Below, in pieces: positions 6,284-37,630 of a DNA stretch of 37,630 nucleotides (position 1 is its first letter; every line of letters starts with the position of its first letter). This stretch comes from Holophagaceae bacterium (GTDB taxonomy: Bacteria > Acidobacteriota > Holophagae > Holophagales > Holophagaceae): the NCBI GenBank assembly GCA_025363715.1, contig JANYLR010000034.1:1-37630 (forward strand). Reading direction: 5' to 3'. The notes below the pieces were generated by a model. It did not search any database, was not told the origin of the DNA, and saw nothing but the letters and a program-made list of their open reading frames with translations. The position numbers and the translations under genes are program-made.

Positions 6284-8886
<2,603 letters not shown>

Positions 8887-9046
8887 GACTTGCCTCGTGC
8901 TGTGCAGGGTGTGCTCGGCTGGGTTCAGGGTCGCAGAAGGAAATCCATCCGGGAATCGCTGCTCTCCCCCTTCATCGTCACCTGGGCCCATTTGCCTGAC
9001 CTGTGGGAGAATCCCTGTGGACCCGAGGGTCTTTAGGAGGTGCCGC

Positions 9047-11678: not shown

Positions 11679-11771
11679 GAAATGCAGACCGTGGCGGCTA
11701 TAGGTATTCCATTCCCCTTGGGTGACGAGAGCGCCTGAAGAGGCACGTGAAGCCCCATCGGTGTAGTCTTT

Positions 11772-11844: not shown

Positions 11845-11920
11845 CTTCCCAACCCGGGATGATTCTTCGAAACCCGATTGGAGCGATGTCCCTGCTCACA
11901 TCCTGGCCCTGGAGCGCACG

Positions 11921-12940: not shown

Positions 12941-12986
12941 ACCGCCGGGCGTTGCCCGCGCCCGGCAGGTGGACCATCATGGCGGC

Positions 12987-15133: not shown

Positions 15134-15208
15134 GGCCGGGCTCCGGGATTCTGCTTGCGAGGCCCTGGCTCCACCGGTAGCGTGGCTCTCACCTTCACGG
15201 GAGGTCGC

Positions 15209-24090: not shown

Positions 24091-25482
24091 TCAGGCCTGC
24101 TGCTGCAGCCAGCGGTTGTAGACCAGCATGCTTAGGGCACTGAGCAGTCCGAAGGAGCCCAGAATCACCCAACCCAGCGTGGCGTATGTGGGATCCAGTC
24201 TGAGCAAACCGTTCGGCAACTTCTCTGCATGGCGGCACATGAAGTAGTTGAAGAACACCGTCCCGACGGGCCCACCCACAATGGCACCGATCCCCATGGG
24301 TAGCTGGGCATACCCGAGGAAAAGCCCTTCCTGCCCCTTGGGGGAGAGAGACCCGATGTATTCGTAGAGACGGCTCGATGCGAAAAGCTCACCGAAGGCG
24401 ATGAGCGCCACGGTCAGGATGATGAACACCGATCCCAGCGGGAGGACCCAGAACAGGAAGCCCGTCCCCGCCTCGACGCCGCCGGACAGGTAGACGGGAA
24501 CGATGTTGATCAGCATGGATAGGCCGATAATGACCGTTCCGATGACGATGGACTTGATGGGCGGGAGCTTGCCAAAGAGCTTCGTGATCAGCAACTGGAA
24601 GGCCACGATGACGATCGGGTTTGCGGCCGTGTAAAGGTCCATCCTGGGGCTCAATTCCACGGTCCGTTTCACATACAGGGGCAGGAGAGTGTAGACCTGG
24701 TTGTAGATGAAGTAGAAGCCGCTAGCGACCACGATGAAGAGCGCGAAGCGCCCATTGCCGAGAGCCGTGAAAATGCCGAGAAAAATGTCCTTGAGCGATT
24801 TGGAGGGTGCCTTTTCGGCCACCCCCATCTCCTGGTCGGGATCCGTATAGAAGAACAGCACCATGAAAAAGGCAACCACTGCGGCCCCCATGCTCACGGC
24901 GAAAATAATGCTGAGATCGAATCCCGGCTGGCTTCGGACGGAATAGGCCACCACGCGTCCAACCACGCTCCCGACGTTGATGACCATGTAAAAAATGGCG
25001 AACCCCAGCGTCTTTTTGGCGCCTGCGGTTTTCTGCACCGTTCCCGCAATGCAGGGCTTGACGAAGGAACCGCCAAGCCCGATCAGCTGGATGCCCATGA
25101 TCACAGTGACCCACACTTGCCAACCCACAGTCACACGGTCTGTCATCGCGTTCTGCAGCCGATGCCCCCCGAACCAGACTGGTGCCCCCATGAGGAGGTA
25201 GCCGACGGCCAATACGCCGAAAGCCAGAAGCAAGGCCTTCTTGAAGCCGATGCGGTCGGCCATGGTGCCCGAGAAAATGGGCATGAGGTAGAGCGTACCC
25301 CAGAGCAGGGGGCCGTTGATGACACCCGGCCAATTGGCTCCGAATCCTAGTTGTCCAAGATAGATCACCACGAAACTGGCCATCGCATAGAAGGCCGCCC
25401 GTTCGAAAAGTTCGATGACGTTTGCACTCCAGAAACTGGAGGGGAAGCGGTAATTCTCGCGGAAGGAGGGTTCGGCGCTCAT
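24091..25482 (-). CDS. POT/PTR2-type major facilitator transporter
   Basis: The 463-residue protein has about 12 hydrophobic helices. ELFERAAFYAMASFVVIYLG near the N-terminus matches the proton-coupled oligopeptide transporter (POT) E-x-x-E-R-type helix, and GTMADRIGFKKALLLAFG is the MFS loop motif. IQLIGLGGSFVKPCIAGTVQ and FYMVINVGSVVGRVVAY are also POT-like. Substrates of the family include di/tripeptides, nitrate and amines; the actual one is unknown. Its coding DNA is clearly poorer in GC than its neighbours: three 60-base lines I counted (24601, 24781, 24961) gave 60, 57 and 52 percent, against 65 (33061, AOR) and 78 (11401, bioA). This suggests recent transfer. Its stop abuts the kinase stop, making TGATCA. 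Confidence 0.82.
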   Translation of the reverse strand: MSAEPSFRENYRFPSSFWSANVIELFERAAFYAMASFVVIYLGQLGFGANWPGVINGPLLWGTLYLMPIFSGTMADRIGFKKALLLAFGVLAVGYLLMGAPVWFGGHRLQNAMTDRVTVGWQVWVTVIMGIQLIGLGGSFVKPCIAGTVQKTAGAKKTLGFAIFYMVINVGSVVGRVVAYSVRSQPGFDLSIIFAVSMGAAVVAFFMVLFFYTDPDQEMGVAEKAPSKSLKDIFLGIFTALGNGRFALFIVVASGFYFIYNQVYTLLPLYVKRTVELSPRMDLYTAANPIVIVAFQLLITKLFGKLPPIKSIVIGTVIIGLSMLINIVPVYLSGGVEAGTGFLFWVLPLGSVFIILTVALIAFGELFASSRLYEYIGSLSPKGQEGLFLGYAQLPMGIGAIVGGPVGTVFFNYFMCRHAEKLPNGLLRLDPTYATLGWVILGSFGLLSALSMLVYNRWLQQQA

Positions 25483-25590: not shown

Positions 25591-26814
25591 TCAGTGATCC
25601 TCCGCCTCCTCCGTGAGGTGCAGCAGGACGACGCCCCCGGGTTCCACCTGGGCCACGCCTTCCGGAACCACCGCCAGGGCGTTGGCCACCAGCATGGAGG
25701 AGAGGATGGCCGAACCCTGGGGCCCGGTGAGCCGCGCCTTGAGCCCATCGGCCTCCCGCCGGGCCACGACCCGCAGGAAGGTGGTGCGCTGATCCGTCCG
25801 GCCGGTCCACCCGTCTTCCAACGCGGCCTCGGCCTCGGGTCGGTGCAGCTTCGAGAAGCCCATCAGCTTCCGTAGCGCCGGGCGGACATACTCCTCGACC
25901 ATGAGCATGGCGGCCACCGGGTTGCCCGGGAGGCCGAAGATGGGCTTGCCGTCCAGTAGCCAGAAGCCCAGGGGGCCGCCCGGCTTCTGCGCCACCTTCC
26001 AAAAGATCCGCTCGGCGCCCAGCTCTTCGAGCATGGCCTTCATGAAGTCGTAGTCGCCCACGGAGATGCCACCGGTGGTGAGGACGACGTCCGCTTCCAG
26101 GGCCTGTCGGAGCACGCCCAATAGCGTGGCGCGGTCGTCCGGTACCCGGGGAAAGGGCACGGGAATCGCTCCGCAGGCGGTCACCTGGGCGCACACCGCG
26201 TGGATATTGGCATCGCGGATGCGGCCGGGGCCGGGCTGTTCCGAAACGTCCACCAGCTCATCCCCAGTGGTGAGCACGGCGACGCGGACGCGGGGATGCA
26301 CGGAGACCGTGGCAATCCCCGCCGCAGCCAGCACGCCGAGGTCCCCGGGCCGCAGCCCCTGCCCCGCCGTCGCCAGCAGCTGGCCCTTGCGCAGGTCCTC
26401 ACCGGCCAGTCGGATGTGGATACCGGCGCGGAGAGGCCGGGTAGTCTCCACCCAGTTTCCGCCGCGGGTCGTGTCTTCCACAGGCACTACGGAATCGGCG
26501 CCTTCCGGCAGGGGGGCGCCGGTCATGATGCGCAGGGCCTGGCCTGGTCCCACGGCACAGAGAGGAACGCCACCGGCCGCGAGGTCACCGAGCACCTGGA
26601 GGCAGACCGGATGCGCTTCGGAGGCCTCCGCCAGATCCGCCGCCTGCACCGCGTAGCCGTCCATGGCGGAATTGGTGAAGGGTGGCACCGTCGATGGGGA
26701 GTGCAGATCCTCGGCGACGGCGAGGCCGAGTACCTGTTCCAGGGGCAGCAGCCGCGCCGGCAGAGGCCGGACTCGACCCAGGATGAGCTGGAGGGCTTGA
26801 GTGGGTGTCGTCAT
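25591..26814 (-). CDS. moeA: Molybdopterin molybdenumtransferase (MoeA)
   Basis: MoeA inserts molybdate, or tungstate in W-users, into adenylylated molybdopterin. At 407 residues it has the full family length. Motifs include the substrate loop PPFTNSAMDGYAVQAADL, RIMTGAPLPEGADSVVPVED, RVRVAVLTTGDELVD, DVVLTTGGISVGDYDFMKAM and PIFGLPGNPVAAMLMVEEYV, with a C-terminal domain IV. Context (tup transporter, tungsten AOR, MoaD-like protein) suggests it serves the tungsten cofactor. The start at 26814 overlaps the stop of a small membrane-protein gene (ATGA), so both are translated together. Whether it prefers W or Mo cannot be read from sequence. Confidence 0.92.
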   Translation of the reverse strand: MTTPTQALQLILGRVRPLPARLLPLEQVLGLAVAEDLHSPSTVPPFTNSAMDGYAVQAADLAEASEAHPVCLQVLGDLAAGGVPLCAVGPGQALRIMTGAPLPEGADSVVPVEDTTRGGNWVETTRPLRAGIHIRLAGEDLRKGQLLATAGQGLRPGDLGVLAAAGIATVSVHPRVRVAVLTTGDELVDVSEQPGPGRIRDANIHAVCAQVTACGAIPVPFPRVPDDRATLLGVLRQALEADVVLTTGGISVGDYDFMKAMLEELGAERIFWKVAQKPGGPLGFWLLDGKPIFGLPGNPVAAMLMVEEYVRPALRKLMGFSKLHRPEAEAALEDGWTGRTDQRTTFLRVVARREADGLKARLTGPQGSAILSSMLVANALAVVPEGVAQVEPGGVVLLHLTEEAEDH

Positions 26815-27257
26815 CCGTCCCGGTACCTCATGACCCGACCGTGGAGGAAGGAGAAATGTCGCCAGGAGCCCGGCATGTGGGAACCGACCGAGGCCACCAG
26901 GGTGGCGGCCAGGTACCAGGGCAGGCGGGCCGCGGGCTGCAGGAAGCCGAGGCCCAGCAAGGCTAATTTCAGCAGCACGGCCACGCCGCTGCCCTGGGTG
27001 AGAATCGCCAGATCCCTGGCGAGGTCCACCGCGAAGAGGAGGGCGCCGCTGACCAGGGTGAGTAGGATGGGCCCCCGGAGGGCCTGGAAATCGGCGCCGA
27101 AGGGAATCCCGCCCACCACCAGGGCCATGGCCGCGATGTGCAGGCTGCGCAGGACGAGCTGCACGGGCCGCGCCCAGGGGAAGTGTCGCGGTGAGGGGGG
27201 GAACAAGGTACCCAGGAGGGTGCGGCGTTCCGGTCTGTCCGGGTGAGTGAATTCCAT
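26811..27257 (-). CDS. Four-helix membrane protein, CopD/DUF2269-like
   Basis: The 148-residue protein starts at ATG 27257 (MEFTHPDRPE); upstream residues overlap the divergent regulator region and look non-coding. It has four predicted membrane helices: LRSLHIAAMALVVGGIPF, PILLTLVSGALLFAVDLA, GVAVLLKLALLGLGFLQP and LPWYLAATLVASVGSHMP. The opening LHIAAMALVVGG is like CopD and DUF2269-type proteins, where the histidine can bind haem or copper. A second histidine in SHMPG could be its partner. It is translationally coupled to moeA. I cannot assign a function; an electron-transfer or metal role near the tungsten cofactor pathway is only a guess. Confidence 0.7.
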   Translation of the reverse strand: MEFTHPDRPERRTLLGTLFPPSPRHFPWARPVQLVLRSLHIAAMALVVGGIPFGADFQALRGPILLTLVSGALLFAVDLARDLAILTQGSGVAVLLKLALLGLGFLQPAARLPWYLAATLVASVGSHMPGSWRHFSFLHGRVMRYRDG

Positions 27258-27330
27258 ATCTTTAGTTCTAGCAGAATCTGGGCCCGGCAATCTTTCCTGT
27301 GCTGAAATGATCGGCAGCAAGGGATCCCCC

Positions 27331-27690
27331 ATGACCAAGTCCCCCTCCATGGCCGTCACCATCCGCATCCGCATCGCGGTCGGGGAGAACATCGCCATCG
27401 GCCAGGGCAAGGCCGACCTCCTGGAGGCCATCGGCCGCACCGGCTCCATCTCCGCGGCGGCCCGCGAGCTGGACATGAGCTACCGCAAGGCCTGGATGCT
27501 GGTGGATGAAATGAACCAGTGCTTCCCCTCCCCCGTGGTCACGGCCATCAAGGGCGGGCTCCAGGGCGGAGGGGCGCAGGTGACTGACCTGGGCCAGGAG
27601 GCCCTGACCCGCTTCCGCCGGATCGTGGCGAAGGCCTCCGCCGCCATTGATGCGGATGTCCGGGAATTCAGAAAGAAACTTCTGCGTTGA
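27331..27690 (+). CDS. ModE-type DNA-binding domain protein without ligand domain
   Basis: This 119-residue protein is essentially the ModE N-terminal winged helix-turn-helix. It contains GKADLLEAIGRTGSISAAAR then ELDMSYRKAWMLVDEMN, the ModE/LysR-type recognition helix, and GGLQGGGAQVTDLGQEAL as the wing. The C-terminal molbindin (Mop) domains that bind molybdate in E. coli ModE are absent. I start at ATG 27331 (MTKSPSMAVT), with AAGGGA upstream; ATGs at 27307 and 27349 are alternatives. It diverges from moeA's operon and precedes tupA by 78 bases. It probably regulates tungstate uptake, either constitutively or through a partner that senses the oxyanion. Similar single-domain regulators are known beside mod genes. 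Confidence 0.83.
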   Translation: MTKSPSMAVTIRIRIAVGENIAIGQGKADLLEAIGRTGSISAAARELDMSYRKAWMLVDEMNQCFPSPVVTAIKGGLQGGGAQVTDLGQEALTRFRRIVAKASAAIDADVREFRKKLLR

Positions 27691-27731
27691 GGTGATATCC
27701 CGCCAAAAAGGCCTGGCCAGGCTGTCCCAAT

Positions 27732-27757
27732 CGTTATAGTCCTGCGAGACTATCGAG
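27732..27757. promoter_or_regulatory. Candidate ModE-like operator overlapping the tupA promoter
   Basis: ATAGTC (27736-27741) and GACTAT (27748-27753) are perfect arms around a 6-base spacer. The left side reads CGTTATAG, close to the ModE half-site CGTTATAT. TATAGT (27735-27740) could also be a -10 element, so binding would block transcription. It starts 37 bases upstream of tupA. Confidence 0.5.
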
Positions 27758-27768
27758 TGGAGGTCGAC

Positions 27769-28623
27769 ATGAACCGATCCACCTTTCTGCGCTGGGGACT
27801 GGCCCTGGCCACGAGCCTATCCCCCTGCTTTCTGGCGGCCGCGCCGCCTGCGGAGAGAATCGTCATTCTGGCCACCACCACCAGCACCCAGGATTCCGGT
27901 CTGCTGGACGAGCTGCTGCCCCTCTTCGAGAAGCAGACCGGCTACCAGGTCAAGACCATCGCCGTGGGCTCCGGCCAGGCCATCGCCATGGGGAAGCGCG
28001 GCGAGGCGGATGTGCTGCTGGTGCATTCTCCCGAGGCCGAGAAGGCGCTGGTAGCCGAGGGTTCCGGCGTGAACCGGCGCATCGTCATGCACAACGACTT
28101 CATCCTGGTGGGACCGGCCGCTGACCCGGCGGGGATCGCGAAACACACCGCGGCAGAGAGCTTCCAGCGGATCGCGGCCACGAAGTCGCTGTTCCTGTCC
28201 CGCGGCGACAACTCCGGCACCCATGCCCAGGAGTTGAAGCTCTGGAAGGCTGCGGGCATCCCCTTCGAAGGCCAGACCTGGTACCAGCAGACGGGCCAGG
28301 GCATGGGCCAGACCCTGGCCATCGCCACCGAAAAGAAGGCTTACACATTGTCAGATCGCGGTACCTATCTCGCCCTGCGGAAGAAGCTCGGCCTGCCCAT
28401 CCTGCATGAAGGCGATCCTGCCCTCCGGAATGTCTACCACGTCATCGAGGTAAATCCGGCGCGGTTCCCCAAGGCGAATGCGGCGGGAGCCCGCGCCTTT
28501 GCTGACTTCATGGTGTCGAAACCTGTCCAGGCCCGCATCAAAGAATTCGGAATCAGCCTCTATGGGTCACCGCTATTCTTCCCAGATGCCGAGGTCCCGA
28601 AGCTGGACGCCGGAAGGAGCTAG
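27769..28623 (+). CDS. tupA: Tungstate-binding protein of ABC transporter
   Basis: TupA captures tungstate in the periplasm. I start at ATG 27769 after GGAGG. The 284-residue product has a Sec signal (FLRWGLALATSLSPCFLAAA). Diagnostic motifs are ILATTTSTQDSGLLDELLPL (the TTTS oxyanion-binding signature), VGSGQAIAMGKRGEADVLLV and FLSRGDNSGTHAQELKLW. The TTTS/RGDNSGTH pattern separates tungstate-selective TupA from ModA. It is followed by a dehydrogenase gene before the permease tupB, which is an unusual order. Selectivity for W over Mo is a family property, inferred here. Expression is probably controlled by the dyad at 27732-27757. Confidence 0.9.
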   Translation: MNRSTFLRWGLALATSLSPCFLAAAPPAERIVILATTTSTQDSGLLDELLPLFEKQTGYQVKTIAVGSGQAIAMGKRGEADVLLVHSPEAEKALVAEGSGVNRRIVMHNDFILVGPAADPAGIAKHTAAESFQRIAATKSLFLSRGDNSGTHAQELKLWKAAGIPFEGQTWYQQTGQGMGQTLAIATEKKAYTLSDRGTYLALRKKLGLPILHEGDPALRNVYHVIEVNPARFPKANAAGARAFADFMVSKPVQARIKEFGISLYGSPLFFPDAEVPKLDAGRS

Positions 28624-28628
28624 AACCC

Positions 28629-30260
28629 ATGTCGAACGCCATCTTCAGCCTGCCCGAATCGCACAGCGAAGCCATCCTTTCCTATGCTCCCGGCTCGAAG
28701 GAACGGGCCCTGCTGAAGGCCGAACTGGAGCGCCAGTACCACCAGGAACTCGAGATCCCGCTCATCATCGGCGGGAAGGAAGTCCGCACCGGCACGATCC
28801 AGAAGGCCGTCTGCCCCCATGACCATAAGCACGTGCTGGCCCGCTACCACGAGGCTGGCGAGGCCGAAGTGCGCCTGGCCATCGAGGCGGCCCTGGCCGC
28901 CAAGAAGGACTGGGAGGCCACGCCCTGGGAGGATCGCGCCGCCATCTTCCACAAGATGGCCAGCCTCATCTCCACCAAGTACCGATACATCCTGAACGCC
29001 GCCACCATGCTCAACCAGTCCAAGAGCGCCTATCAGGCGGAGATTGATAGCACCTGCGAAACGGCGGACTTCTTCCGGTTCAACGCGAAGTTCATGGAGG
29101 ACATCTACAAGCACCAGCCCATCTCGGATCCGCACGTGTGGAACCGGGTCCACTACCGGGCCCTGGAAGGCTTCGTACTCGCCGTGACGCCCTTCAATTT
29201 TACGGCCATCGGCGCCAACCTCGCCACCGCCCCCGCCATCATGGGCAACACCGTGGTCTGGAAACCCGCTTCGACCTCCATTCTGTCGAACTACTACCTC
29301 ATGCAGCTCTTCAAGGAGGCGGGACTCCCCGATGGCGTCATCAACTTCGTCCCCGGCCGCGGCTCCATGATCGGCAAGATCGCCCTGGAAGACCCCAACT
29401 TCGCGGGCCTGCACTTCACGGGCTCCACGGGCGTCTTCAACAGCATGTGGAAGACCATCGCGGACAACCTCGGCCGCTACCGCAGCTATCCCCGCATCGT
29501 GGGCGAGACCGGCGGCAAGGACTACATCTTCATGCATGCCACGGCGGATGCGGTGGAGACCGCGGCGGCCATCGTGCGCGCGGGCTTCGAGTACCAGGGC
29601 CAGAAGTGCTCCGCTTGCTCCCGGGTCTACATCCCGGCCTCCCGCTGGGCCGAGATGAAGGGCCTCATCCTGGGCCTGCTGGCCGAGGTCAAGATGGGCG
29701 ACGTGCGGGACTTCCGCAATTTCTTCAATGCGGTGATCGACGAGGCCGCCTTCGACAGCACGATGAAGTACATCGAGCTGGCCAGGAACGCCAAGGATGC
29801 CCAGATCATCGCGGGCGGCAAGGGCGACAAATCGAAAGGCTATTTCATCGAGCCCACGGTCATCCTCACCACCGATCCCAAGTTCGTGACCATGGAAGAG
29901 GAGATCTTCGCACCAGTGGTCACCCTCTACGTCTACGAGGATGCGCAGCTGGAAGCGACCCTGAAGCTGCTCGACGAGACCTCGCCCTATGCCCTCACCG
30001 GCGCCATCTTCGCCCGGGACCGCTACATCATCAACCAGCTCACCGATGCTCTGGCCAATACCGCCGGCAACTTCTACATCAACGACAAGTGCACGGGGGC
30101 CGTGGTGGGTCACCAGCCCTTTGGCGGTGCCCGGGCCTCGGGCACCAATGACAAGGCCGGCAGCCTGCTGAATCTGATCCGGTGGACCTCGCCGCGCACC
30201 ATCAAGGAAAGCTTCACCCCACCCCGGGACATCAAGTTCCCGTTTCTCGAAGCCGAGTAG
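28629..30260 (+). CDS. pruA: 1-pyrroline-5-carboxylate / glutamate semialdehyde dehydrogenase
   Basis: NAD(P)-dependent aldehyde dehydrogenase of the ALDH4 type, which oxidises glutamate-5-semialdehyde (from proline breakdown) to glutamate. Its 543-residue length and IIGGKEVRTGTIQKAVCPHD, GFVLAVTPFNFTAIGANLAT, VVWKPASTSILSNYYLMQLF and LHFTGSTGVFNSMWKTIADN match this branch rather than generic ALDHs. Catalytic residues are Glu293 (VGETGGKD) and Cys327 (QGQKCSACSR). The proline dehydrogenase half of bifunctional PutA is absent, so this is the stand-alone form. It starts 5 bases after tupA, with GGAG upstream, and ends 2 bases before tupB. Its place inside the tungstate operon is unexpected and suggests shared regulation with the tungsten aldehyde enzyme. 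Confidence 0.9.
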   Translation: MSNAIFSLPESHSEAILSYAPGSKERALLKAELERQYHQELEIPLIIGGKEVRTGTIQKAVCPHDHKHVLARYHEAGEAEVRLAIEAALAAKKDWEATPWEDRAAIFHKMASLISTKYRYILNAATMLNQSKSAYQAEIDSTCETADFFRFNAKFMEDIYKHQPISDPHVWNRVHYRALEGFVLAVTPFNFTAIGANLATAPAIMGNTVVWKPASTSILSNYYLMQLFKEAGLPDGVINFVPGRGSMIGKIALEDPNFAGLHFTGSTGVFNSMWKTIADNLGRYRSYPRIVGETGGKDYIFMHATADAVETAAAIVRAGFEYQGQKCSACSRVYIPASRWAEMKGLILGLLAEVKMGDVRDFRNFFNAVIDEAAFDSTMKYIELARNAKDAQIIAGGKGDKSKGYFIEPTVILTTDPKFVTMEEEIFAPVVTLYVYEDAQLEATLKLLDETSPYALTGAIFARDRYIINQLTDALANTAGNFYINDKCTGAVVGHQPFGGARASGTNDKAGSLLNLIRWTSPRTIKESFTPPRDIKFPFLEAE

Positions 30261-30262
30261 GG

Positions 30263-30961
30263 ATGGACCTGATCTGGGAGGGCCTGCGGAAAGCGCTGGA
30301 GCTGCTGCTCAGGATGGACCCGGAGGTTCTCCGGATCACCCTGCTCTCCCTCCAGGTGTCTGGCCTCGCCACCCTGCTGAGCGTGCTGCTCGGACTCGGT
30401 CTCGCCGTGCTGGTGGCCCTCAACGAGTTCCCGGGCAAACGCCTGGTCATCGCCCTCATGAACACGGGCATGGGCCTGCCGCCCGTGGTGGTGGGGCTCT
30501 TCGTGACCGTGCTGCTCTGGCGGAACGGGCCCTTCGGCTTTCTGGGCATCCTCTACACGCCCGCAGCCATCATCCTGGCCCAGTGCGTCATCGCCACACC
30601 CATCATCGCCGGTCTCGGGCTCGCCGCCCTCCAGCACCTGCCGCCGGGCCTGCGCCTCCAGATCCTCGCCCTGGGCGCGACCCGGACTCAGCTGGTGTGG
30701 CTGCTGCTGAAGGAGGCTCGCCTGCCTCTGCTGGCCGCCGTCATGGCCGGTTTCGGCGGCGTCATCTCCGAGGTAGGTGCCTCCATCATGGTGGGCGGCA
30801 ACCTGAAAGGCAGTACCCGCGTGCTCACCACGGCCACCGTCATGGAAACCAGCCGCGGCAACTTCGACGTGGCCTTCGCCCTCAGCTTCATCCTGCTGGT
30901 GCTGGCCTTTTCGGTGAACGCCCTGCTCACCCACCTGCAGCAACGGAGCCAGCGCCGATGA
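30263..30961 (+). CDS. tupB: Tungstate ABC transporter permease
   Basis: The 232-residue inner-membrane permease has six hydrophobic segments. LRITLLSLQVSGLATLLSVL begins the membrane domain, and the cytoplasmic EAA-like coupling loop is near ALGATRTQLVWLLLKEARLP. MNTGMGLPPVVVGLFVTVLL and PIIAGLGLAALQHLPPGLR are typical of TupB, which is close to molybdate/sulfate permeases. EVGASIMVGGNLKGSTRVLT is a further family hallmark. Start ATG 30263 lies 2 bases after the dehydrogenase stop, and its own stop overlaps tupC (ATGA), so translation is tightly linked. It forms the membrane channel with TupC and receives tungstate from TupA. Confidence 0.9.
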   Translation: MDLIWEGLRKALELLLRMDPEVLRITLLSLQVSGLATLLSVLLGLGLAVLVALNEFPGKRLVIALMNTGMGLPPVVVGLFVTVLLWRNGPFGFLGILYTPAAIILAQCVIATPIIAGLGLAALQHLPPGLRLQILALGATRTQLVWLLLKEARLPLLAAVMAGFGGVISEVGASIMVGGNLKGSTRVLTTATVMETSRGNFDVAFALSFILLVLAFSVNALLTHLQQRSQRR

Positions 30962-32073
30962 GCCGCGAATCCCTGCTCCAGGCACGGGGCCTCCGGGTCC
31001 ACCGGGGCGGGGCCCTGGTGCTGGATGTGCCGGCCCTGGACCTGCGCGCCGGAGAAGTGCTCGCCCTCATGGGCCCCAATGGCGCCGGCAAGAGTACCCT
31101 CCTGCTGACCTTGGCCGGTCTACTGCCCCACTCCGCCGGGGAGCTCCGGTTCCAGGACGGGAAACTCGATTCCAGGACTGAGCGGAATGACTTCCGCCGC
31201 CGCATGACCATGGTGTTCCAAGATCCCCTGCTCTTCGATGTCACGGTGGCCGAGAACATCGCTTCGGGATTGAAGCTGCGGGGCGTACCCGCTGCGGAGC
31301 GGCATCCCCAGGTGGTGACCTGGGCCCGGCGACTCGGAATTGGCGACCTGCTGAATCGCTCGGCCCTGCACCTGTCCGGCGGCGAGGCCCAGCGCACCGC
31401 CCTGGCCCGGGCCTTCGTCCTCCGTCCCGAGATCCTCTTCCTGGACGAGCCCTTCTCTTCCCTGGATGCCCAGGCCCGGGAAGAGCTCATTGGGGAGCTG
31501 GGGCACATCCTGGCCGAAACCGGAACCACCGCGGTCATCTCCACTCACGACCAGGGCAAGGCGGTCCGGCTGGCGCACCGGCTGGCCGTGATGCAGGAGG
31601 GTCGCATCATCCAGATGGGGGGCCTGAGGGAGGTCATGAACCACCCGGAGAGCCCCTTCGTCGCCGCCTATGTGGGCATGGAAACCCTCCTCAAAGGGCA
31701 GGTGGTGACCTGCGAGGGCGGGCTGATCGCCTTGCGTCTGCGAGGTTCGCGCGCCCCTGAGATCCAGGCCCTGGGCGAGGCCCAGCCCGGCCAGACGGTC
31801 CTGGTGGGGGTGCGTCCCGAGCACGTGGCCCTGTCTTTACAAACCGACAACAGCAGCAGCGTCCGGAACGCCTTTCCAGGGGCTGTGACCAAGGTCATAC
31901 CCCGGGGTCCCTTCTTCAAGGTCGAGCTGGATTGCGGTTTCCACCTGGCGGCCTATGTGACGGCCCAATCGCTGTCAGAACTTGATCTTCAGCCTGGTCG
32001 GCAGGTGGTGGCCTCCTTCAAGGCCACCTCCGTGCACCTCATCCGAAAGGAGGGACTCGACTCCCAGCTGTGA
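30958..32073 (+). CDS. tupC: Tungstate ABC transporter ATPase with C-terminal TOBE domain
   Basis: ATP-hydrolysing subunit of the tungstate importer, 371 residues from ATG 30958 (overlapping tupB). The ABC domain at about 1-235 has Walker A GPNGAGKST (Lys45), Q-loop MVFQDPLLFD, signature LSGGEAQRTALARA, Walker B ILFLDEPFSSLDAQ and H-loop STHDQGKA. Residues about 270-365 form a TOBE/Mop-like oxyanion domain (VLVGVRPEHVALSL, VIPRGPFFKVELDCGFHLAA). That domain may allow inhibition of transport by bound tungstate, as described for related ModC-type proteins. Because the ModE-type regulator here lacks such a domain, TupC may hold the only oxyanion sensor in the locus (inference). Confidence 0.9.
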   Translation: MSRESLLQARGLRVHRGGALVLDVPALDLRAGEVLALMGPNGAGKSTLLLTLAGLLPHSAGELRFQDGKLDSRTERNDFRRRMTMVFQDPLLFDVTVAENIASGLKLRGVPAAERHPQVVTWARRLGIGDLLNRSALHLSGGEAQRTALARAFVLRPEILFLDEPFSSLDAQAREELIGELGHILAETGTTAVISTHDQGKAVRLAHRLAVMQEGRIIQMGGLREVMNHPESPFVAAYVGMETLLKGQVVTCEGGLIALRLRGSRAPEIQALGEAQPGQTVLVGVRPEHVALSLQTDNSSSVRNAFPGAVTKVIPRGPFFKVELDCGFHLAAYVTAQSLSELDLQPGRQVVASFKATSVHLIRKEGLDSQL

Positions 32074-32182
32074 CCACGCGCCATTGCGGGCCGGAGGCCC
32101 CAGGACTAGCCTCAGCTATGGGGTGGCGAAGCTGCTCCTCTATGGCTCTGCTGTTCTGAACCCGTCCGGAGGCGTCTTCGCC

Positions 32183-32605
32183 ATGAAACAGCTGGTGATT
32201 GATTTCCAGAAATGCGACGCAGGGCGCAACTGCGAGCATGAGTGCGAACTGGAGTGCGCCATCAAGGTCTTCAAGGTGGACGACCCGGCCCAGGCCGCCC
32301 TCCAGATCAAGGCCTACGAGGAGGGCGGCGGCCACGCCATCCTTTGCGACCAGTGCGGCGATTGCGTGGTGGTCTGCCCCACCGAGGCCCTCAAGCGCAA
32401 CAAGCTGGGCGTCGTGATGATCGACAAGAAGATCTGCGTGGGCTGCTACATGTGCATCGGCTTCTGCGAGAAGGACGCCTTCATGCGGAACTCCGACTGG
32501 ATCACGCCCCACAAGTGCACGTCCTGCGGCATCTGCGTGAAGGTCTGCCCCCACGGCGCCCTGTCCATCGTGGAAGTCCCTGAGCCGGCCCCCCGGATCA
32601 TTTGA
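32183..32605 (+). CDS. Ferredoxin-like subunit with four [4Fe-4S] motifs
   Basis: The 140-residue electron-transfer protein starts at ATG 32183 after GGAGG. It holds 16 cysteines in four groups: Cys11/17/21/25 (wide spacing), Cys55/58/61/65, Cys85/88/91/95 and Cys112/115/118/122. The last three follow C-x2-C-x2-C-x3-C. It has no signal peptide. It precedes the AOR gene by 16 bases and is the expected redox partner, as AorA is for the tungsten aldehyde oxidoreductase AorB of Aromatoleum. The FAD/NADH subunit (AorC) is missing here, so electrons probably go to another carrier. It may be cotranscribed with tupC, 109 bases upstream. Confidence 0.87.
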   Translation: MKQLVIDFQKCDAGRNCEHECELECAIKVFKVDDPAQAALQIKAYEEGGGHAILCDQCGDCVVVCPTEALKRNKLGVVMIDKKICVGCYMCIGFCEKDAFMRNSDWITPHKCTSCGICVKVCPHGALSIVEVPEPAPRII

Positions 32606-32621
32606 GCCCAAGGAGCGCGAC

Positions 32622-34850
32622 ATGAGCCAGCTCGTCTTCGATCCCAGCAAGGTCATGGATATCGATCACACTCTGCGCACCGAGTACCTGGATGGCCTCG
32701 AGGCCATCAAGGCCGCGCATAAGGTGCTCAAGGAAATCACCTATACGCCCAGCCTGCCGGACAAGGGCTACACCAACCGCAGCCTCTACGTGAACGTGGG
32801 CTCCCTGGAGATCAAGGAGAAGCCCGTCACTCAAGCGATGAAGGATGTCTTCATCGGCGGTCGCGGCTTCGGGCTCTACCACCTCTGGAACGCGGTGAAG
32901 CCCACCACCCGCTGGAACGATCCGGAGAACGAAATCATCATCAGCCCCGGGCCCGTGTCGGGCATGACCCAGTACGCGGGCACCGGAAAGTCGCTGGTGG
33001 TGAGCCTCTCGCCCCAGACGGACATCCCCATCGATTCCAACGTGGGCGGCTTCTACGGCCCCCTGCTCAAGTTCTCGGGCTTCGACGCGCTGGAACTGCA
33101 GGGCAAGTCGGACCGGGACATCATCCTCTTCATCGATGGCCAGAAGGGCATCATCCGTGTCGAAGAGGCCCCCACGGACCCCGTGGACAGCCATGTCCTC
33201 GCGGAGATCCTCACCCACATGTACGCCGAGAACGAGGCGGACCTGCCTAACATCTCCGTGGTCTCCACGGGCGCCGCCGCCGAGCACAGCCTCATCGGCA
33301 TGCTGAACTTCTCGTTCTATGACCGGCGCAGGAAGTGCGTGCGCTTCAAGCAGGCCGGGCGGGGCGGCATCGGCACCGTGTTCCGGAACAAGCGCATCCG
33401 CGCCCTCGTGATCCGTGGGCCCAAGGTGGCCGGCGACATGAATCATCCCGTCGATCCCGAGACCATCGCCAAGACCGGCATCAAGTACCACAAGGAGATC
33501 CGCGAGAACGATCCCCACCAGTGCATGATGCGGCGCAATGGCACGGCCCATATCGTCGAGATCATGGACGCCTACGACCTGCTACCCGTCCACAACTTCC
33601 AGTACGGCTCGCACCCGGATGTCCACAAGATCGACTCCAGCTACTGGCAGCAGCGCTGCACCCAGGTCACCGTGGACGGCTGCTGGTACGGCTGCTCCAT
33701 GGCCTGTGCCAAGGGCGTGGATGGCCTCACCGTACAGACCGGCCCCTACAAGGGCCACCTGGTCTCCGTTGACGGACCCGAGTACGAGAATGCGGCGGGA
33801 CTCGGCTCCAATTGCGGTGTATTCGATCCCGAATACCTGCTGGAACTGAACTTCTACTGCGACACCTACGGGATCTGCACCATCACCTACGGCACCCTCA
33901 CGGCTTTCGTCATGGAGTGCTACCAGCGCGGCATCCTGAACAAGGAGCGCACCGGCGGCCTGGAACTGACCTGGGGCAACGCCGCGGCCGACCTGGAGAT
34001 GATGCACCAGATGGCCCGCGGTGAAGGCTTCGGCAAGATCGCCGGCCTGGGCACCAAGAAGATGAAGGAACACTTCATCAAGCAGGGCTGGGGCGATCCG
34101 CAGCTCATCAACGACATCGGCATGGAGAACAAGGGCCTCGAGTACTCCCAGTACATGTCCAAGGAATCCCTGGCCCAGCAGGGCGGCTACGCGCTGACCA
34201 ACAAGGGCCCCCAGCACGACGAGGCCTGGCTGATCTTCATGGACATGGTGAACAAGCAGATCCCCACTTTCGAGGACAAGGCCGAAGCGCTCTATTACTT
34301 CCCCCTGTTCCGCACCTGGTTCGGGCTGAACGGTTTCTGCAAGCTGCCCTGGAACGACGTGGTCCCCGCCAACAACTCGGAACAGCCCGAGGCCCACAAG
34401 GTGCCCGAGCACGTGCAGAACTACGTGGATCTGTTCACGGCCACCACGGGCATCAAGATCACCAAGGAAGATCTCATCACGCAGTCCGCGAAGGTCTACA
34501 ACTTCCAGCGCGTGTTCAACATCCGCATGGGCAAGGGCCTGCGCCTGCACGATGCCGCGCCCTACCGCTCGCTGGGCCCTGTCACCAAGGAGGAGTACGA
34601 ATCCCGGGCCGAGCGCTACGACCAGCAGATCGTCACCGAAATGGGTCTCGATCCCGTTGGCAAGACCACCGAGGAGAAGATGGCCCTGCACCGCGAGTGG
34701 CGCACCGGCCGGTTCTCCCAGCTCATGGACGCCGTCTACACCCGCCGGGGCTGGACCCTGGACGGCGTGCCCACCCTGGAGCGCCTGAAGGAGCTGGGCC
34801 TGGATGCCTTCCCGGAAGTGGTCGAAGTGGTGAAGCAGCATCTGCCGTGA
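32622..34850 (+). CDS. aor: Tungsten aldehyde:ferredoxin oxidoreductase family protein
   Basis: Likely tungsten-bis-pyranopterin enzyme oxidising aldehydes to acids (or the reverse) with ferredoxin. It has 742 residues, against about 600-650 in typical AOR, FOR and BamB; about 50 of the extra ones form an N-terminal extension. The AFOR N-domain is visible in FIGGRGFGLYHLWNAVKPTT, IIISPGPVSGMTQYAGTGKS and NVGGFYGPLLKFSGFDALEL. The cluster ligands appear as Cys354/358/362 (CWYGCSMAC, one residue longer than the usual C-x2-C-x3-C) plus a later Cys573 (GFCKLPWND). AAGGAG precedes ATG 32622. Neighbours (tup genes, ferredoxin, MoaD-like protein, moeA) strongly support a W-enzyme. Substrate is not known; amino-acid semialdehydes are a contextual guess. 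Confidence 0.88.
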   Translation: MSQLVFDPSKVMDIDHTLRTEYLDGLEAIKAAHKVLKEITYTPSLPDKGYTNRSLYVNVGSLEIKEKPVTQAMKDVFIGGRGFGLYHLWNAVKPTTRWNDPENEIIISPGPVSGMTQYAGTGKSLVVSLSPQTDIPIDSNVGGFYGPLLKFSGFDALELQGKSDRDIILFIDGQKGIIRVEEAPTDPVDSHVLAEILTHMYAENEADLPNISVVSTGAAAEHSLIGMLNFSFYDRRRKCVRFKQAGRGGIGTVFRNKRIRALVIRGPKVAGDMNHPVDPETIAKTGIKYHKEIRENDPHQCMMRRNGTAHIVEIMDAYDLLPVHNFQYGSHPDVHKIDSSYWQQRCTQVTVDGCWYGCSMACAKGVDGLTVQTGPYKGHLVSVDGPEYENAAGLGSNCGVFDPEYLLELNFYCDTYGICTITYGTLTAFVMECYQRGILNKERTGGLELTWGNAAADLEMMHQMARGEGFGKIAGLGTKKMKEHFIKQGWGDPQLINDIGMENKGLEYSQYMSKESLAQQGGYALTNKGPQHDEAWLIFMDMVNKQIPTFEDKAEALYYFPLFRTWFGLNGFCKLPWNDVVPANNSEQPEAHKVPEHVQNYVDLFTATTGIKITKEDLITQSAKVYNFQRVFNIRMGKGLRLHDAAPYRSLGPVTKEEYESRAERYDQQIVTEMGLDPVGKTTEEKMALHREWRTGRFSQLMDAVYTRRGWTLDGVPTLERLKELGLDAFPEVVEVVKQHLP

Positions 34851-34854
34851 TCGG

Positions 34855-34877
34855 CTCCATTCGCTGCGCGAATGGAG
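34855..34877 (+). promoter_or_regulatory. Perfect 10-base-pair hairpin between aor and the MoaD-like gene
   Basis: CTCCATTCGC (34855-34864) pairs fully with GCGAATGGAG (34868-34877) around a TGC loop. It starts 5 bases after the AOR stop and ends just before the ribosome-binding site AGGAAAAG of the MoaD-like gene. There is no T-run, so I favour an mRNA-stability or translation-tuning element over a terminator. Confidence 0.6.
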
Positions 34878-34889
34878 ATAGGAAAAGAC

Positions 34890-35087
34890 ATGATTCTCGT
34901 CAATGAGGAACCGCTCGACTGGCACGGGGGCATGACCGTCCGCGACATCCTGCGTGCCCGGAACTACCGCTTCCCCATGCTGGTCATCCACGTGAACGAC
35001 GCCCTGATTCAGAAGAAGGACTACGACTCGACCACCATCCCGGATGACGCGGTGGTCAAGGTCATCCACCTCATCAGCGGCGGGTGA
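34890..35087 (+). CDS. MoaD/ThiS-like sulfur-carrier protein
   Basis: This 65-residue beta-grasp protein ends in the di-glycine ISGG needed for thiocarboxylation by a MoeB-like enzyme. I start at ATG 34890 (MILVNEEPLDWHGGMTVRDI); an ATG six codons upstream lies in the hairpin and has no ribosome-binding site. TVRDILRARNYRFPMLVIHV and PDDAVVKVIHLISGG fit the MoaD/ThiS superfamily. Its place after an AOR gene parallels AorD-type proteins and suggests it supplies sulfur for the tungstopterin of that enzyme. A ThiS role is less likely because no thiamine gene is near. It is expressed through the hairpin at 34855-34877. Confidence 0.85.
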   Translation: MILVNEEPLDWHGGMTVRDILRARNYRFPMLVIHVNDALIQKKDYDSTTIPDDAVVKVIHLISGG

Positions 35088-35092
35088 ATGCA

Positions 35093-35118
35093 CTGAGGCC
35101 ACCCTGGGGCGGCCTCAG
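35093..35118. terminator. GC-rich stem-loop between convergent genes
   Basis: CTGAGGCC (35093-35100) and GGCCTCAG (35111-35118) form an 8-base perfect stem with a 10-base loop, in the 51-base gap between the MoaD-like gene (+) and the dehydrogenase (-). A smaller ATCGG/CCGAT hairpin follows at 35120-35139. The position suggests bidirectional termination, although no T-tract is present. Confidence 0.5.
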
Positions 35119-35138
35119 CATCGGCATCCTGCGTCCGA

Positions 35139-36665
35139 TCACATCTCCAGGGTGATCCCTTGGGCCAGTTCCACCGTGCCACTGAAGTTGATGGCGCTGG
35201 TCTGGCGTCGCATGTAGGCCTTCCAGGCATCGGACCCGCTTTCGCGGCCGCCGCCGGTCTCCTTCTCGCCGCCGAAGGCGCCACCAATCTCGGCGCCGCT
35301 GGTGCCGGTGTTCACGTTGGCGATGCCGCAGTCGCTGCCGGCCACGGAGAGGAACAATTCGCCCTCCCGCTGGTCATTGGTGATGATGGCGCTGGAGAGG
35401 CCCTGGGTCACGCCGTTCTGGAGGGCGATGGCCTCCTCGATGGTGCGGTAGCTCATCAGGTAGAGTACCGGCGCGAAGGTCTCCTCCTTCACGATGGACA
35501 GGTTGCCGCTCACTTCCGCGATGCAGGGGGTGATGTAGCAGCCGCCGGGGTTGGGCAGCTTCTCGCCGCCGAAGAGGATCTTCCCGCCTTCAGCTTTCAC
35601 GGACTCGATGGCTGCCAGCATGGTAGCCACGGCCGCAGGATCGACCAGAGGACCCATGAGGTTCTTCCCATCGCGGGGATCGCCAATGGGCGTCTTGCGG
35701 TAGAGCTCCAGCAGGCGCTCGCGGAAGGTACCCAGGACGGACTCGTGGACGATGACCCGACGCGTGGTGGTGCAGCGCTGACCCGAAGTGCCGATGGCGC
35801 CGAAGTAGATGGAGCGCACCGCGATATCCAGATCGGCCTTGTCGCTCACGATGACGGCACCATTGCCGCCCAGCTCGAGGATGTGTCGGCCGAAGCGCTC
35901 CTGTACCAGCTTGCCCACATGGCGGCCACCCGGGACCGAGCCGGTGTAGGACAGCAGGGCCACCCTGGGGTCGGTGTTGATGAGATCGCCGATGTCGCTG
36001 CCCCGGCCGATGGCCAGGCTGCAGATGGCAGGATCGAAGCCGAAGTCGCGCAGCACTTTTTCGGCGATCTTCGTGCAGGCGATGGCCGTGAGGGGAGTCT
36101 TTGACGATGGCTTCCACAGCACCGTGTCGCCGCAGACCAAGGCGATGGCCGTATTCCAACTCCAGACGGCCACGGGGAAGTTGAACGCCGTGATGATGCC
36201 CACCACGCCCAGGGGGTGCCACTGCTCCTGCAGCCGGTGCATGCGCCGCTCGCTGGGCATGGTGAGGCCGTAGAGCTGGCGGGAGAGGCCCACCGCGAAG
36301 TCGCAGATATCGATCATCTCCTGGACCTCGCCCAGGCCCTCGCGCAGGGTCTTGCCCATCTCAAGGGAAACCAGCCCGGCCAGGGCCTGCTTGTTCCGGC
36401 GCAGCTCGTCGCCAATGGCCTTCACCACCTCGCCGCGCTTGGGGGCGGGCACCAGCTTCCAGGATGCGAAGGCCTGATGGCATTTCGCTAGGATGGCGTC
36501 GAATTCCTGGGGGGTCACGTTGGTGACACTTGCCAGGGCTTCGCCGTGGATCGGAGAGACGACCGTCTGCAGCTTGCCGCTGCCGGTCCAGGCACCCGCG
36601 AACCCCCCGGAATTCGTATCGGAAAGTCCCAATGCCTCCAAAGCCTTTTCCATGACCTTCTCCAT
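35139..36665 (-). CDS. amaB: L-piperideine-6-carboxylate (aminoadipate semialdehyde) dehydrogenase
   Basis: ALDH7-type enzyme that oxidises alpha-aminoadipate semialdehyde (in equilibrium with piperideine-6-carboxylate) to aminoadipate in lysine degradation. It has 508 residues. Branch-specific C-terminal motif AFGGEKETGGGRESGSDAWK and QEQWHPLGVVGIITAFNFPV indicate the ALDH7/AmaB group. Catalytic Cys298 lies in SGQRCTTTRR, with the Glu in LELGGNGA. Start ATG 36665 follows GGAGG. Upstream on its strand is a perfect TATAAT (36711-36706) as a candidate -10. It diverges from a LysR-type gene, probably its regulator. It also closes a locus that already holds a P5C dehydrogenase and a tungsten aldehyde enzyme. 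Confidence 0.87.
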   Translation of the reverse strand: MEKVMEKALEALGLSDTNSGGFAGAWTGSGKLQTVVSPIHGEALASVTNVTPQEFDAILAKCHQAFASWKLVPAPKRGEVVKAIGDELRRNKQALAGLVSLEMGKTLREGLGEVQEMIDICDFAVGLSRQLYGLTMPSERRMHRLQEQWHPLGVVGIITAFNFPVAVWSWNTAIALVCGDTVLWKPSSKTPLTAIACTKIAEKVLRDFGFDPAICSLAIGRGSDIGDLINTDPRVALLSYTGSVPGGRHVGKLVQERFGRHILELGGNGAVIVSDKADLDIAVRSIYFGAIGTSGQRCTTTRRVIVHESVLGTFRERLLELYRKTPIGDPRDGKNLMGPLVDPAAVATMLAAIESVKAEGGKILFGGEKLPNPGGCYITPCIAEVSGNLSIVKEETFAPVLYLMSYRTIEEAIALQNGVTQGLSSAIITNDQREGELFLSVAGSDCGIANVNTGTSGAEIGGAFGGEKETGGGRESGSDAWKAYMRRQTSAINFSGTVELAQGITLEM

Positions 36666-36705
36666 GGTTCACCTCCAGGATTCATTTGTATCGTTTTTTG
36701 TTTCA

Positions 36706-36711
36706 ATTATA
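36706..36711 (-). promoter_or_regulatory. Candidate -10 element of amaB
   Basis: On the minus strand this reads TATAAT, a perfect -10 hexamer, 41 bases upstream of the amaB start codon, in an AT-rich intergenic region. The hexamer 17 bases further upstream (TGCAAC) is a poor -35, which suits an activator-dependent promoter. Confidence 0.4.
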
Positions 36712-36733
36712 AAATTCATTCGATTCACGTTGC

Positions 36734-36752
36734 ATATGAATATCATTCATAT
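36734..36752. promoter_or_regulatory. Dyad operator candidate before the LysR gene
   Basis: ATATGAAT (36734-36741) and ATTCATAT (36745-36752) are perfect 8-base arms around ATC, ending 2 bases before the LysR start. ATTCAT also occurs at 36680-36685 and 36714-36719, giving four related hexamers in the divergent amaB/lysR region. This fits a LysR-type recognition/activation site pair with autoregulation. Confidence 0.55.
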
Positions 36753-36754
36753 AT

Positions 36755-37630
36755 ATGGATACCCTGCTCGATCTTCCCCAGCTCCGCACCTTCTACACCC
36801 TGGCGCAAACCGGCAGCTTCACCGCCTGCGCCCGCCGGCTCAACCGCACCCAGTCTGCCGTCAGCCACGCCATGGCCAAGCTGGAGGACCTTGCCGGCGC
36901 GCCACTGCTGGCCCGCAGGGGCCGGGACCTGGGGCTGACCGAGGAAGGCCGCCGGCTCTACCAGGCTTGCGAACAGATCTTCGCCACACTCGATGCGGCG
37001 GTGGACGACCTGCGCCGCCACCGGACCCTGGCCCGGGGCTGCCTCCGCATCGGGGCCACCGTGGAATTCGGGAGCAGCATCCTCATGAAGCACATGCAGC
37101 CCTTCCTCGCCGCCAACCCAGGCCTGGAGATCGATTTCACCCTCAGCCACGAGCTGCTCGGCCCCCTGCTGCGGGATGACCTCGACCTCATCATCGACTG
37201 CCAGGAACACCCCCTGCCCACCCTGAAAAAGTCGCCGCTGTTCCGGGAAACCTATGTGGTGGCCTGTTCGAGGGCCTTCCGGAAGGTCCATCGGCTCCGC
37301 GTTCCAGCGGATCTTTCGCGGGGCCCCGTCCTCTCACTGGACAAGGCCGGGTCCTGGTGGAACCGCTTCCTCATGGCCGTACCGGACCAGGAACAGCCCC
37401 AGCTGGACCGGATCATCGCCGTGAATCACATCCGGGCCATGATCCACGCGGCCATCGAGGGCATGGGGGCCCTGCTGGTGCCCCGCTACAGCGTGCTGGA
37501 GGAGCTGAATCGGGGCGACCTCGTGGCCCTCTTCCCCACCATCCGCCCCACCGAGGACCGCTTCTCCATCTACCAGAAGAAAGTGAAGGCCGGCCATGAG
37601 AAGCAGCGGTTGCTGACGCGGTACCTGCAG
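36755..37630 (+). CDS. LysR-type transcriptional regulator (C-terminus beyond window)
   Basis: The frame opens at ATG 36755 and stays open for 292 codons to the window end, so almost the whole regulator (usual length about 300) is present. Residues about 7-62 hold the winged helix-turn-helix (LRTFYTLAQTGSFTACARRL, RTQSAVSHAMAKLEDLAG). Residues about 90 onward form the periplasmic-binding-protein-like effector domain (LRIGATVEFGSSILMKHMQP, DLDLIIDCQEHPLP, AAIEGMGALLVPRYSV). No ribosome-binding site is visible before the ATG; the AT-rich dyad occupies that place, so translation may be leaderless or the start slightly different. It is divergent from amaB and is probably its activator, with an effector related to lysine/aminoadipate metabolism (inference). 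Confidence 0.85.
   Translation, partial: MDTLLDLPQLRTFYTLAQTGSFTACARRLNRTQSAVSHAMAKLEDLAGAPLLARRGRDLGLTEEGRRLYQACEQIFATLDAAVDDLRRHRTLARGCLRIGATVEFGSSILMKHMQPFLAANPGLEIDFTLSHELLGPLLRDDLDLIIDCQEHPLPTLKKSPLFRETYVVACSRAFRKVHRLRVPADLSRGPVLSLDKAGSWWNRFLMAVPDQEQPQLDRIIAVNHIRAMIHAAIEGMGALLVPRYSVLEELNRGDLVALFPTIRPTEDRFSIYQKKVKAGHEKQRLLTRYLQ

Follow-up and report, generated by a model that had tools for sequence, protein, structure and literature searches.

A long-clade aldehyde oxidoreductase in a Geothrix-like tup operon, predicted to be a ferredoxin-linked counterpart of P5C dehydrogenase

The AOR and its operon

The window analysed here is a stretch of 37,630 nucleotides, one contig (JANYLR010000034.1; C69 of genome G000) of a Geothrix-like genome of 3.43 Mb and 84% completeness. 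It carries an island with the gene order MFS/POT transporter, moeA, small protein, ModE-type helix-turn-helix (HTH) regulator, tupA, pruA, tupB, tupC, WorS, AOR, WorX, amaB (reverse strand) and LysR (Table 1). The aldehyde ferredoxin oxidoreductase (AOR) encoded there belongs to a distinct clade of long AORs, and these enzymes are probably ferredoxin-linked counterparts of PruA, the dehydrogenase of pyrroline-5-carboxylate (P5C); gene context points to the oxidation of L-glutamate 5-semialdehyde to glutamate as the predicted reaction of the AOR in the Geothrix operon. In proline dehydrogenase operons of Firmicutes the AOR stands instead of PruA, while in Geothrix it stands beside PruA.

The pruA gene sits inside the tup operon: it starts 5 bp past tupA and its last base (30260) is the first base of tupB, while tupB and tupC overlap by 4 bp. 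The order tupA-pruA-tupB was found in 18 of 80 loci retrieved through AOR similarity (17 Geothrix-like loci and L021), and this arrangement is more than chance. In the window and the 17 Geothrix-like loci the order is tupA-pruA-tupB-tupC and then WorS-AOR-WorX. The closest named contig is from a Geothrix metagenome-assembled genome, whose AOR is 95% identical to that of the window. An initial annotation of this DNA had listed tupABC, moeA, a MoaD-like gene, a ModE-type regulator, an AOR with its ferredoxin and two dehydrogenases, for P5C and for L-piperidine-6-carboxylate (P6C), as contiguous, and all of these were found by model scans. To this can be added the placement of pruA inside the tup operon and the identity of the "ferredoxin" as a WorS-type subunit.

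Exchange of AOR and pruA in proline dehydrogenase operons

The slot following pdhB, a gene of an L-proline-dehydrogenase-type (PDH) complex, was compared at 41 places in two Firmicutes classes. It holds an AOR at 22 of these, pruA at 13 and neither at four, the other two being cut by contig ends. In the class of genome G084, pdhB was identified in 20 of 82 genomes (E<=1e-60, 85-100% identity), with pruA in the slot in 13 and WorS-AOR in seven (L050, L061, L064, L078, L153, L154 and L216); no genome has both and none has neither. One of the seven, L216, runs into a contig end, which leaves WorS and the N-terminal ~220 residues of the AOR. The products of the 13 slot pruA genes (L203-L215) are 56-58% identical to PruA of the window, and the only one scanned (L203) scored 788 bits, over the TIGR01236 cut-off. 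An extra long AOR is encoded elsewhere in one of these 13 genomes (G129), in a glutamate dehydrogenase (GDH)/Kor/transaminase setting (L157). For the second class, 391 genomes were drawn evenly from a larger group and gave 21 pdhB places in 19 genomes: an AOR occupies the slot at 15 and pruA at none, two are cut and four have neither. WorS was seen in all AOR slots of this class except L222. Among the 80 loci retrieved by AOR similarity, the dehydrogenase gene set directly precedes WorS-AOR in 14, with all four genes in 12 and the other two (L042 and L046) on short contigs, and WorX comes next in most of the 14.

The identity of the PDH complex was tested on one operon (L050). Its pdhB product matches 1y56_B at 291 bits versus 156 for the sarcosine oxidase beta subunit, whereas for pdhA the two matches are barely separated (1y56_A 79.4 bits, sarcosine oxidase 76.2). 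The structure 1Y56 is the L-proline dehydrogenase complex of Pyrococcus horikoshii (PMC1949818; this and the other papers are cited from passages of their text). Sarcosine, and with it formaldehyde, was rejected as the first-choice substrate because 1y56_B is the best solved match of pdhB. That the AOR would serve another aldehyde of the same operons, either formaldehyde, with N-methyl amino acids as the source, or hydroxyproline-derived alpha-ketoglutarate semialdehyde, is very unlikely. Both pdhA and pdhB are homologous to sarcosine oxidase subunits, and HypD with a hydroxyproline dehydratase/epimerase-type gene (below cut-offs) lies near some PDH operons, a sign of hydroxyproline use; however, the beta chain of the solved L-proline dehydrogenase is the nearest match of pdhB, the gene that takes the slot of the AOR encodes a TIGR01236-type P5C dehydrogenase, and the product of HypD is itself P5C.

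No P5C dehydrogenase was found at E<=1e-60, a threshold that detects the Escherichia coli and Bacillus subtilis controls, in 12 of the 14 PDH-AOR genomes, draft genomes that may miss genes. Proline dehydrogenase of the PF01619 type was found in none of the 14.

Three further features of these operons were observed. Genome G079 has two PDH complexes, each with its own AOR next to it (L230 and L045). In L203, HypD and the PDH-pruA operon are separated by a hydroxyproline dehydratase/proline racemase-type gene (3953-4972; 398 bits, cut-off 540). In L228, a clostridial PDH-WorS-AOR locus, the genes that come next (11673-15155) include one that is NuoF-like, with a score below cut-off, and one for a group A6 NADH-dependent [FeFe] hydrogenase (925 bits, cut-off 765); these genes are a possible electron sink.

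Gene neighbourhoods of the long AORs

The locus set comprised the 80 loci found by AOR similarity and eight long-AOR loci of the G084 class, giving 88 clade loci, of which 22 are Geothrix-like and 66 are others; genes in this high-G+C DNA were located as open reading frames (ORFs) by codon-usage scoring and by tblastn. As a control, a subset of all search matches in the 82 genomes of the G084 class provided 40 AOR regions, eight long and 32 short. At least one of pdhB, HypD, ornithine aminotransferase (OAT) and pruA lies <=6.5 kb away in 40 of the 88 clade loci and in 22 of the 66 that are not Geothrix-like, versus none of the 32 short AORs. Within the G084 class the same neighbours occur at eight of 12 long-AOR loci versus 0/32 short, in Fisher tests that ignore relatedness between loci, which weakens these contrasts. 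The flanks compared are also unequal, reaching 6.5 kb on both sides in 43 of 88 long loci and 5.9 kb on both sides in 22 of 32 short ones; the ten short-AOR loci with less than 5.9 kb on a side likewise count against the comparison.

Beyond the PDH genes, the neighbours over their cut-offs in L050 are HypD (1351 bits, cut-off 1100), SucC, SucD, Kor alpha and methylaspartate mutase E. In L155 and L157 the genes that exceed their cut-offs are those of an acetylornithine/ornithine-type transaminase and of Kor alpha, with glutamate dehydrogenase below its cut-off, and L047 has Xaa-Pro-dipeptidase-like and PrdR-like genes, both below cut-off. In L068 (Alkaliphilus transvaalensis; 6607-9186), WorS-AOR is preceded by the 5-oxoprolinase genes pxpA and pxpB (over cut-offs) and a PxpC-like gene, which would represent another route towards glutamate. 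As known families, these neighbours produce or consume P5C/glutamate semialdehyde, glutamate or compounds made from glutamate. In a quick AOR tree of 93 rows, the PDH context falls in one Firmicutes part and the OAT/GDH/Kor context in another group, and the pruA context is found in Holophagae and twice in Bacteroidota.

These neighbours also bear on the direction of the reaction. It is very unlikely that in Geothrix the AOR would run in reverse, using reduced ferredoxin to convert glutamate or a different acid to a semialdehyde for the synthesis of proline or other products: AORs are able to contribute to the reduction of acids (PMC10816221), but the operon partners found elsewhere are catabolic (PDH, HypD, Kor, SucCD) and pruA, with which the AOR is exchanged, is oxidative.

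Absence of pruA and amaB from most loci with this AOR type, which the initial annotation named as a refutation, is what is seen outside the Geothrix-like loci: among the 66 others pruA is near the AOR in four and amaB in one. In PDH operons, pruA is apparently missing near the AOR because the AOR takes its place.

The AOR protein and its partners

The window AOR is 27-29% identical to the two other AORs of its own genome, versus 58-95% to members of the distinct long-AOR clade (~720-740 aa), which was found in Acidobacteriota, Firmicutes, Bacteroidota and others. The second-shell residues listed for aldehyde-oxidising tungsten enzymes (PMC13328260), namely Thr243, Glu313, Tyr427 and His448 in Pyrococcus furiosus numbering, were mapped through a HMMER alignment to T308, E389, Y511 and H532, each present in 80 of the 80 clade members retrieved. 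Equally invariant are C354, C358, C362 and C573. For the 4Fe-4S cluster of the family, CxxCxxxC and a later Cys are expected, and both P. furiosus AOR and one paralogue have CxxCxxxC. The corresponding motif of the clade is CxxxCxxxC (residues 354-362), and its first cysteine, C354, lies one residue earlier than the P. furiosus-equivalent position 355 (80/80). Directly after the active-site His532, D533 and E534 are invariant in the clade and absent from both aligned paralogues; it may be guessed that they hold the amino group of the substrate.

Enzymes of the YdhV/benzoyl-CoA reductase type are marked by loss of second-shell residues (PMC12096430). The window AOR does not show this loss: it retains all four, and the YdhV-type NCBIfam model matches it at 80 bits, under its cut-off of 868.

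The ferredoxin-like gene upstream was named WorS because of its 16 cysteines and its matches to the small subunits of two solved AORs (9mqx_E and 8c0z_C, among others), which extend over residues 2-131 of 140. The WorS-WorL-WorX set fits the class II tungsten-containing oxidoreductases (WOR) of PMC13328260. No FAD or bifurcation subunit was found among the operon genes identified by model scans. An in-frame TAG in some Desulfosporosinus-like AOR matches was taken as the normal stop near the C-terminus, since L061, L064 and L078 have ORFs that span the AOR.

History of pruA and amaB in Geothrix

The long AOR was found in 28 of 36 relatives of the same genus. The genomes of 27 of them also carry a pruA of the cassette type (81-93% identity, one match each at E<=1e-60); in the remaining one, G033, none was found. 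Six of the eight relatives without the AOR have a pruA of another lineage (57-59% identity) beside amaB, two of the six pruA genes being cut by contig ends, and the spacing between the two genes is 60-131 bp (five measured). The other two are G010, with cassette-type pruA fragments but no long AOR (genome 78% complete), and G011, in which no pruA was found. Of the six AOR-less pruA-amaB loci, five have at least one flank in common with the window and four have both, and the sixth (L148) is too short; the common flanks are an MFS transporter or histidine kinase gene on one side and, beyond amaB, LysR on the other. In a quick pruA tree with midpoint root, the cassette genes form one clade, while those of AOR-less Geothrix group with outgroup Holophagae and with L027, where a pruA of the other lineage lies near tup and AOR in a different arrangement. 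The flanks and the tree together indicate that the cassette with its own pruA occupies the place of the other pruA in AOR-less relatives, and we infer that it replaced this older gene. The window genome and 55 of 60 relatives encode a proline dehydrogenase of family PF01619, a probable source of P5C in these organisms.

The pruA-amaB pair occurs without the AOR in both AOR-less Geothrix and outgroup Holophagae, and amaB is probably an older neighbour and not a part of the AOR system. For this reason amaB and P6C were rejected as parts of it. That one enzyme would serve both the P5C and the P6C semialdehydes, as first suggested, is quite unlikely: amaB does lie beside the AOR in Geothrix and in the Bacteroidota locus L043, but the pair stands without the AOR elsewhere, and amaB is near the AOR in 18 of 88 loci, 17 of them Geothrix-like and one from Bacteroidota. 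Of the proposal of an AOR for amino-acid semialdehydes, the P5C/glutamate 5-semialdehyde half is thus retained on the strong but indirect evidence of the pruA/AOR slot exchange, and the lysine half is not.

Predicted tungstate supply and regulation

Models for tungstate proteins are the best matches of TupA and TupC (WtpC model), while for TupB the tungstate model comes second. The inverted repeat upstream of tupA is a weak candidate for the regulator site; in relatives, only L004 (11) and L025 (12) rise above the usual background of 8-10, and most are at background. In two Acidobacteriota AOR loci with tupABC and moeA and without pruA (L032, 16426-17649; L036, 17828-19051), a gene resembling pyridoxal phosphate-dependent aminotransferases adjoins tupA; a model scan of that in L032 gave nothing over cut-off.

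Points against the proposed substrate

Several observations weigh against glutamate semialdehyde as the substrate throughout the clade or qualify the proposal for Geothrix. None of the searched C5 genes lies <=10 kb from the AOR in 47 of the 88 clade loci; 28 of these have less than 6.5 kb on one or both sides, and 19 have both flanks. The 47 include 20 of the 22 Bacteroidota loci, so the substrate may differ in this group; all that L051 shows is a pruA-like fragment. Riflebacteria and Myxococcota loci also belong to the 47, as do several from Holophagae, and clade enzymes without C5 neighbours may act on another substrate. Within the G084 class, four of the 12 long-AOR loci lack the PDH, HypD, OAT and pruA neighbours (L156, L158, L159 and the contig-cut L160), and in the second class four pdhB places are followed by neither AOR nor pruA (L219, L224, L227 and L231). 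The genomes of L047 and L065 have a PDH-AOR operon plus a separate P5C dehydrogenase. As pruA is also present in Geothrix, the AOR would not be the sole enzyme for this step there. Finally, TupA, TupB and TupC all score under the curated cut-offs of the tungstate models, and a preference for tungstate over molybdate is therefore presumed.

The 47 loci without C5 neighbours would also be compatible with a general, broad-range aldehyde detoxifier, found in amino-acid operons because amino-acid breakdown yields many aldehydes, and several characterised AORs are broad-range and tied to peptide or amino-acid use (PMC13328260). Such a role is nevertheless rather unlikely in view of the exact exchange with pruA in 20/20 PDH operons of the G084 class and of the short AORs of the same class, which lack these neighbours at all 32 loci.

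Other features of the window

The moeA gene is retained in most Geothrix loci of sufficient length. Family searches with the small protein next to it gave no match; relatives with 50-83% identity were found in Geothrix and some other loci. For the ModE-type ORF the sole Pfam match is the HTH, below cut-off. The start of tupB was set at the first ATG past 30182, whereas the model scan used the longer ORF from 30182, and tupC relatives in Geothrix loci are 63-87% identical. A promoter scan of 26700-37000 found none, terminator predictions were no better than in shuffled sequences, and scans of the window found no tRNA and no Rfam match at the gathering threshold.

Table 1. Genes and sites of the tungstate-AOR island and its flanks (positions in the window)
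Feature	Position	Strand	Evidence and remarks
MFS/POT (peptide-type) transporter	24091..25482	-	Pfam MFS_1, PTR2; left flank common to some AOR-less Geothrix (L193, L195)
moeA, molybdopterin molybdenumtransferase family, cofactor assembly	25591..26814	-	Pfam MoeA_N, MoCF_biosynth, MoeA_C
Small protein, probably membrane	26811..27254	-	Overlaps the start of moeA; own start codon uncertain, longest ORF to 27476
ModE-type HTH regulator	27306..27690	+	TIGR00637 80.6 bits, below cut-off 98.5; longest ORF from 27247, start uncertain
Inverted repeat TTATAGTC-CTGCGA-GACTATCG, candidate ModE-type operator upstream of tupA	27734..27755	.	14/16 half-site letters
tupA, tungstate-type binding protein	27757..28623	+	Best model TupA NF041772 237.8 bits, cut-off 400; alternative ATG 27769
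pruA, P5C (glutamate semialdehyde) dehydrogenase	28629..30260	+	TIGR01236 763.5 bits, over cut-off 613.6
tupB, permease	30260..30961	+	General permease model NF038017 best and over cut-off; NF041773 153 bits, cut-off 320
tupC, ATPase	30958..32073	+	Best model tungstate WtpC NF040840 262.5 bits, cut-off 440
WorS-type polyferredoxin subunit, 140 residues	32183..32605	+	16 Cys (room for four 4Fe-4S clusters)
WorL/AOR, 742 aa, proposed glutamate-5-semialdehyde (P5C):ferredoxin oxidoreductase	32622..34850	+	Pfam AFOR_N 140 bits, AFOR_C 329 bits
WorX (ThiS/MoaD-like), probably cofactor maturation	34872..35087	+	TIGR01683 42.3 bits, over cut-off 37.45
amaB, P6C dehydrogenase	35139..36665	-	NF050084 744.4 bits, over cut-off 730
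LysR regulator, runs past window end	36755..37630	+	Pfam; right flank common to AOR-less Geothrix

Elsewhere in the window, two amidohydrolase genes (12843-14279 and 15155-16672) have Xaa-Pro dipeptidase as the best named model (294 and 142 bits, cut-off 500) and possibly reflect the use of proline peptides. Biotin synthesis genes are also present, a BioF-like gene at 5156-6283 (394 bits, below the cut-off of 426) and BioA at 10314-11678 (484 bits, over the cut-off of 405).

Proposed role

The conserved Geothrix operon tupA-pruA-tupB-tupC-WorS-AOR-WorX would be a single transcript, with Tup, MoeA and WorX serving the cofactor of the AOR and tungsten as the presumed metal. The AOR would share the substrate of its Firmicutes relatives and oxidise L-glutamate 5-semialdehyde (P5C in its open form, derived from proline or ornithine) to glutamate, passing electrons via WorS to ferredoxin; PruA would carry out the same step with NAD+. 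The cell would thereby gain low-potential ferredoxin, and not NADH, from the aldehyde-to-acid step. Both enzymes are kept in Geothrix, probably as alternatives set by tungsten supply or redox state, and the position of PruA within the tungstate operon suggests that it is a tungsten-free backup. A wider view may be put forward tentatively, at somewhat less than even confidence: that a tungsten enzyme displaced P5C dehydrogenase in proline catabolism, and that Geothrix carries a tungsten-tuned PruA/AOR pair yielding NADH or low-potential ferredoxin according to metal supply and redox state.

A 2026 survey divided the tungsten oxidoreductases into 92 clades; a role is defined for five, and 38 contain class II members of which none is characterised (PMC13328260). 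The present analysis gives one distinct long-AOR group a concrete predicted substrate and pathway. If the prediction is true, proline and ornithine breakdown in anaerobes would end in an oxidation that reduces ferredoxin and conserves energy, and the closely related operons with either enzyme would amount to a natural exchange experiment.

Comparison with known systems

Literature searches returned nothing on an AOR with Geothrix or with glutamate semialdehyde, using a phrase blind to the "aldehyde:ferredoxin" spelling and with subscription papers mostly outside the search. The only match pairing AOR with proline dehydrogenase concerns other matters in the passages retrieved, and the searched passages of a paper on C. 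sticklandii contain nothing on such an AOR. Likewise, the main text of PMC13328260, as far as it was covered, has no mention of proline, semialdehyde, glutamate, Geothrix, Holophag or Desulfosporosinus. The initial annotation knew of no described AOR dedicated to amino-acid semialdehydes, and the general idea was anticipated: P. furiosus formaldehyde ferredoxin oxidoreductase (FOR) may naturally act on glutaric semi- or dialdehyde (PMC12096430), so that a tungsten enzyme for such aldehydes had been proposed before, for another clade.

Four known systems resemble the predicted one. Like that of the window, class II WOR (WorL and WorS, with WorX named for some) have the same WorL fold domains, a 16-Cys WorS, a ThiS-like WorX and the second-shell Thr/Glu/Tyr/His (PMC13328260). 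In contrast, the window AOR falls in a distinct clade of ~720-740 aa with CxxxCxxxC in place of CxxCxxxC, and its predicted substrate, glutamate semialdehyde, is not named in the covered main text of that paper. P. furiosus FOR likewise has a C5 semi- or dialdehyde as its proposed natural substrate (PMC12096430), but it is a shorter protein of 619 aa, and its structure 1b25 matches the window AOR at 142 bits. GAPOR and GOR, which replace GAPDH, follow the same logic, with a tungsten enzyme and ferredoxin substituting for an NAD(P) enzyme at one step (PMC13328260); they differ in substrate, and in the window clade the swap shows up between relatives at the level of single operons. The fourth is PruA (TIGR01236) with the PDH proline operons, for which the predicted reaction and the operon slot are the same as for the AOR while the protein family is unrelated. 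The two also differ in electron acceptor, since PruA uses NAD whereas ferredoxin is predicted for the AOR.

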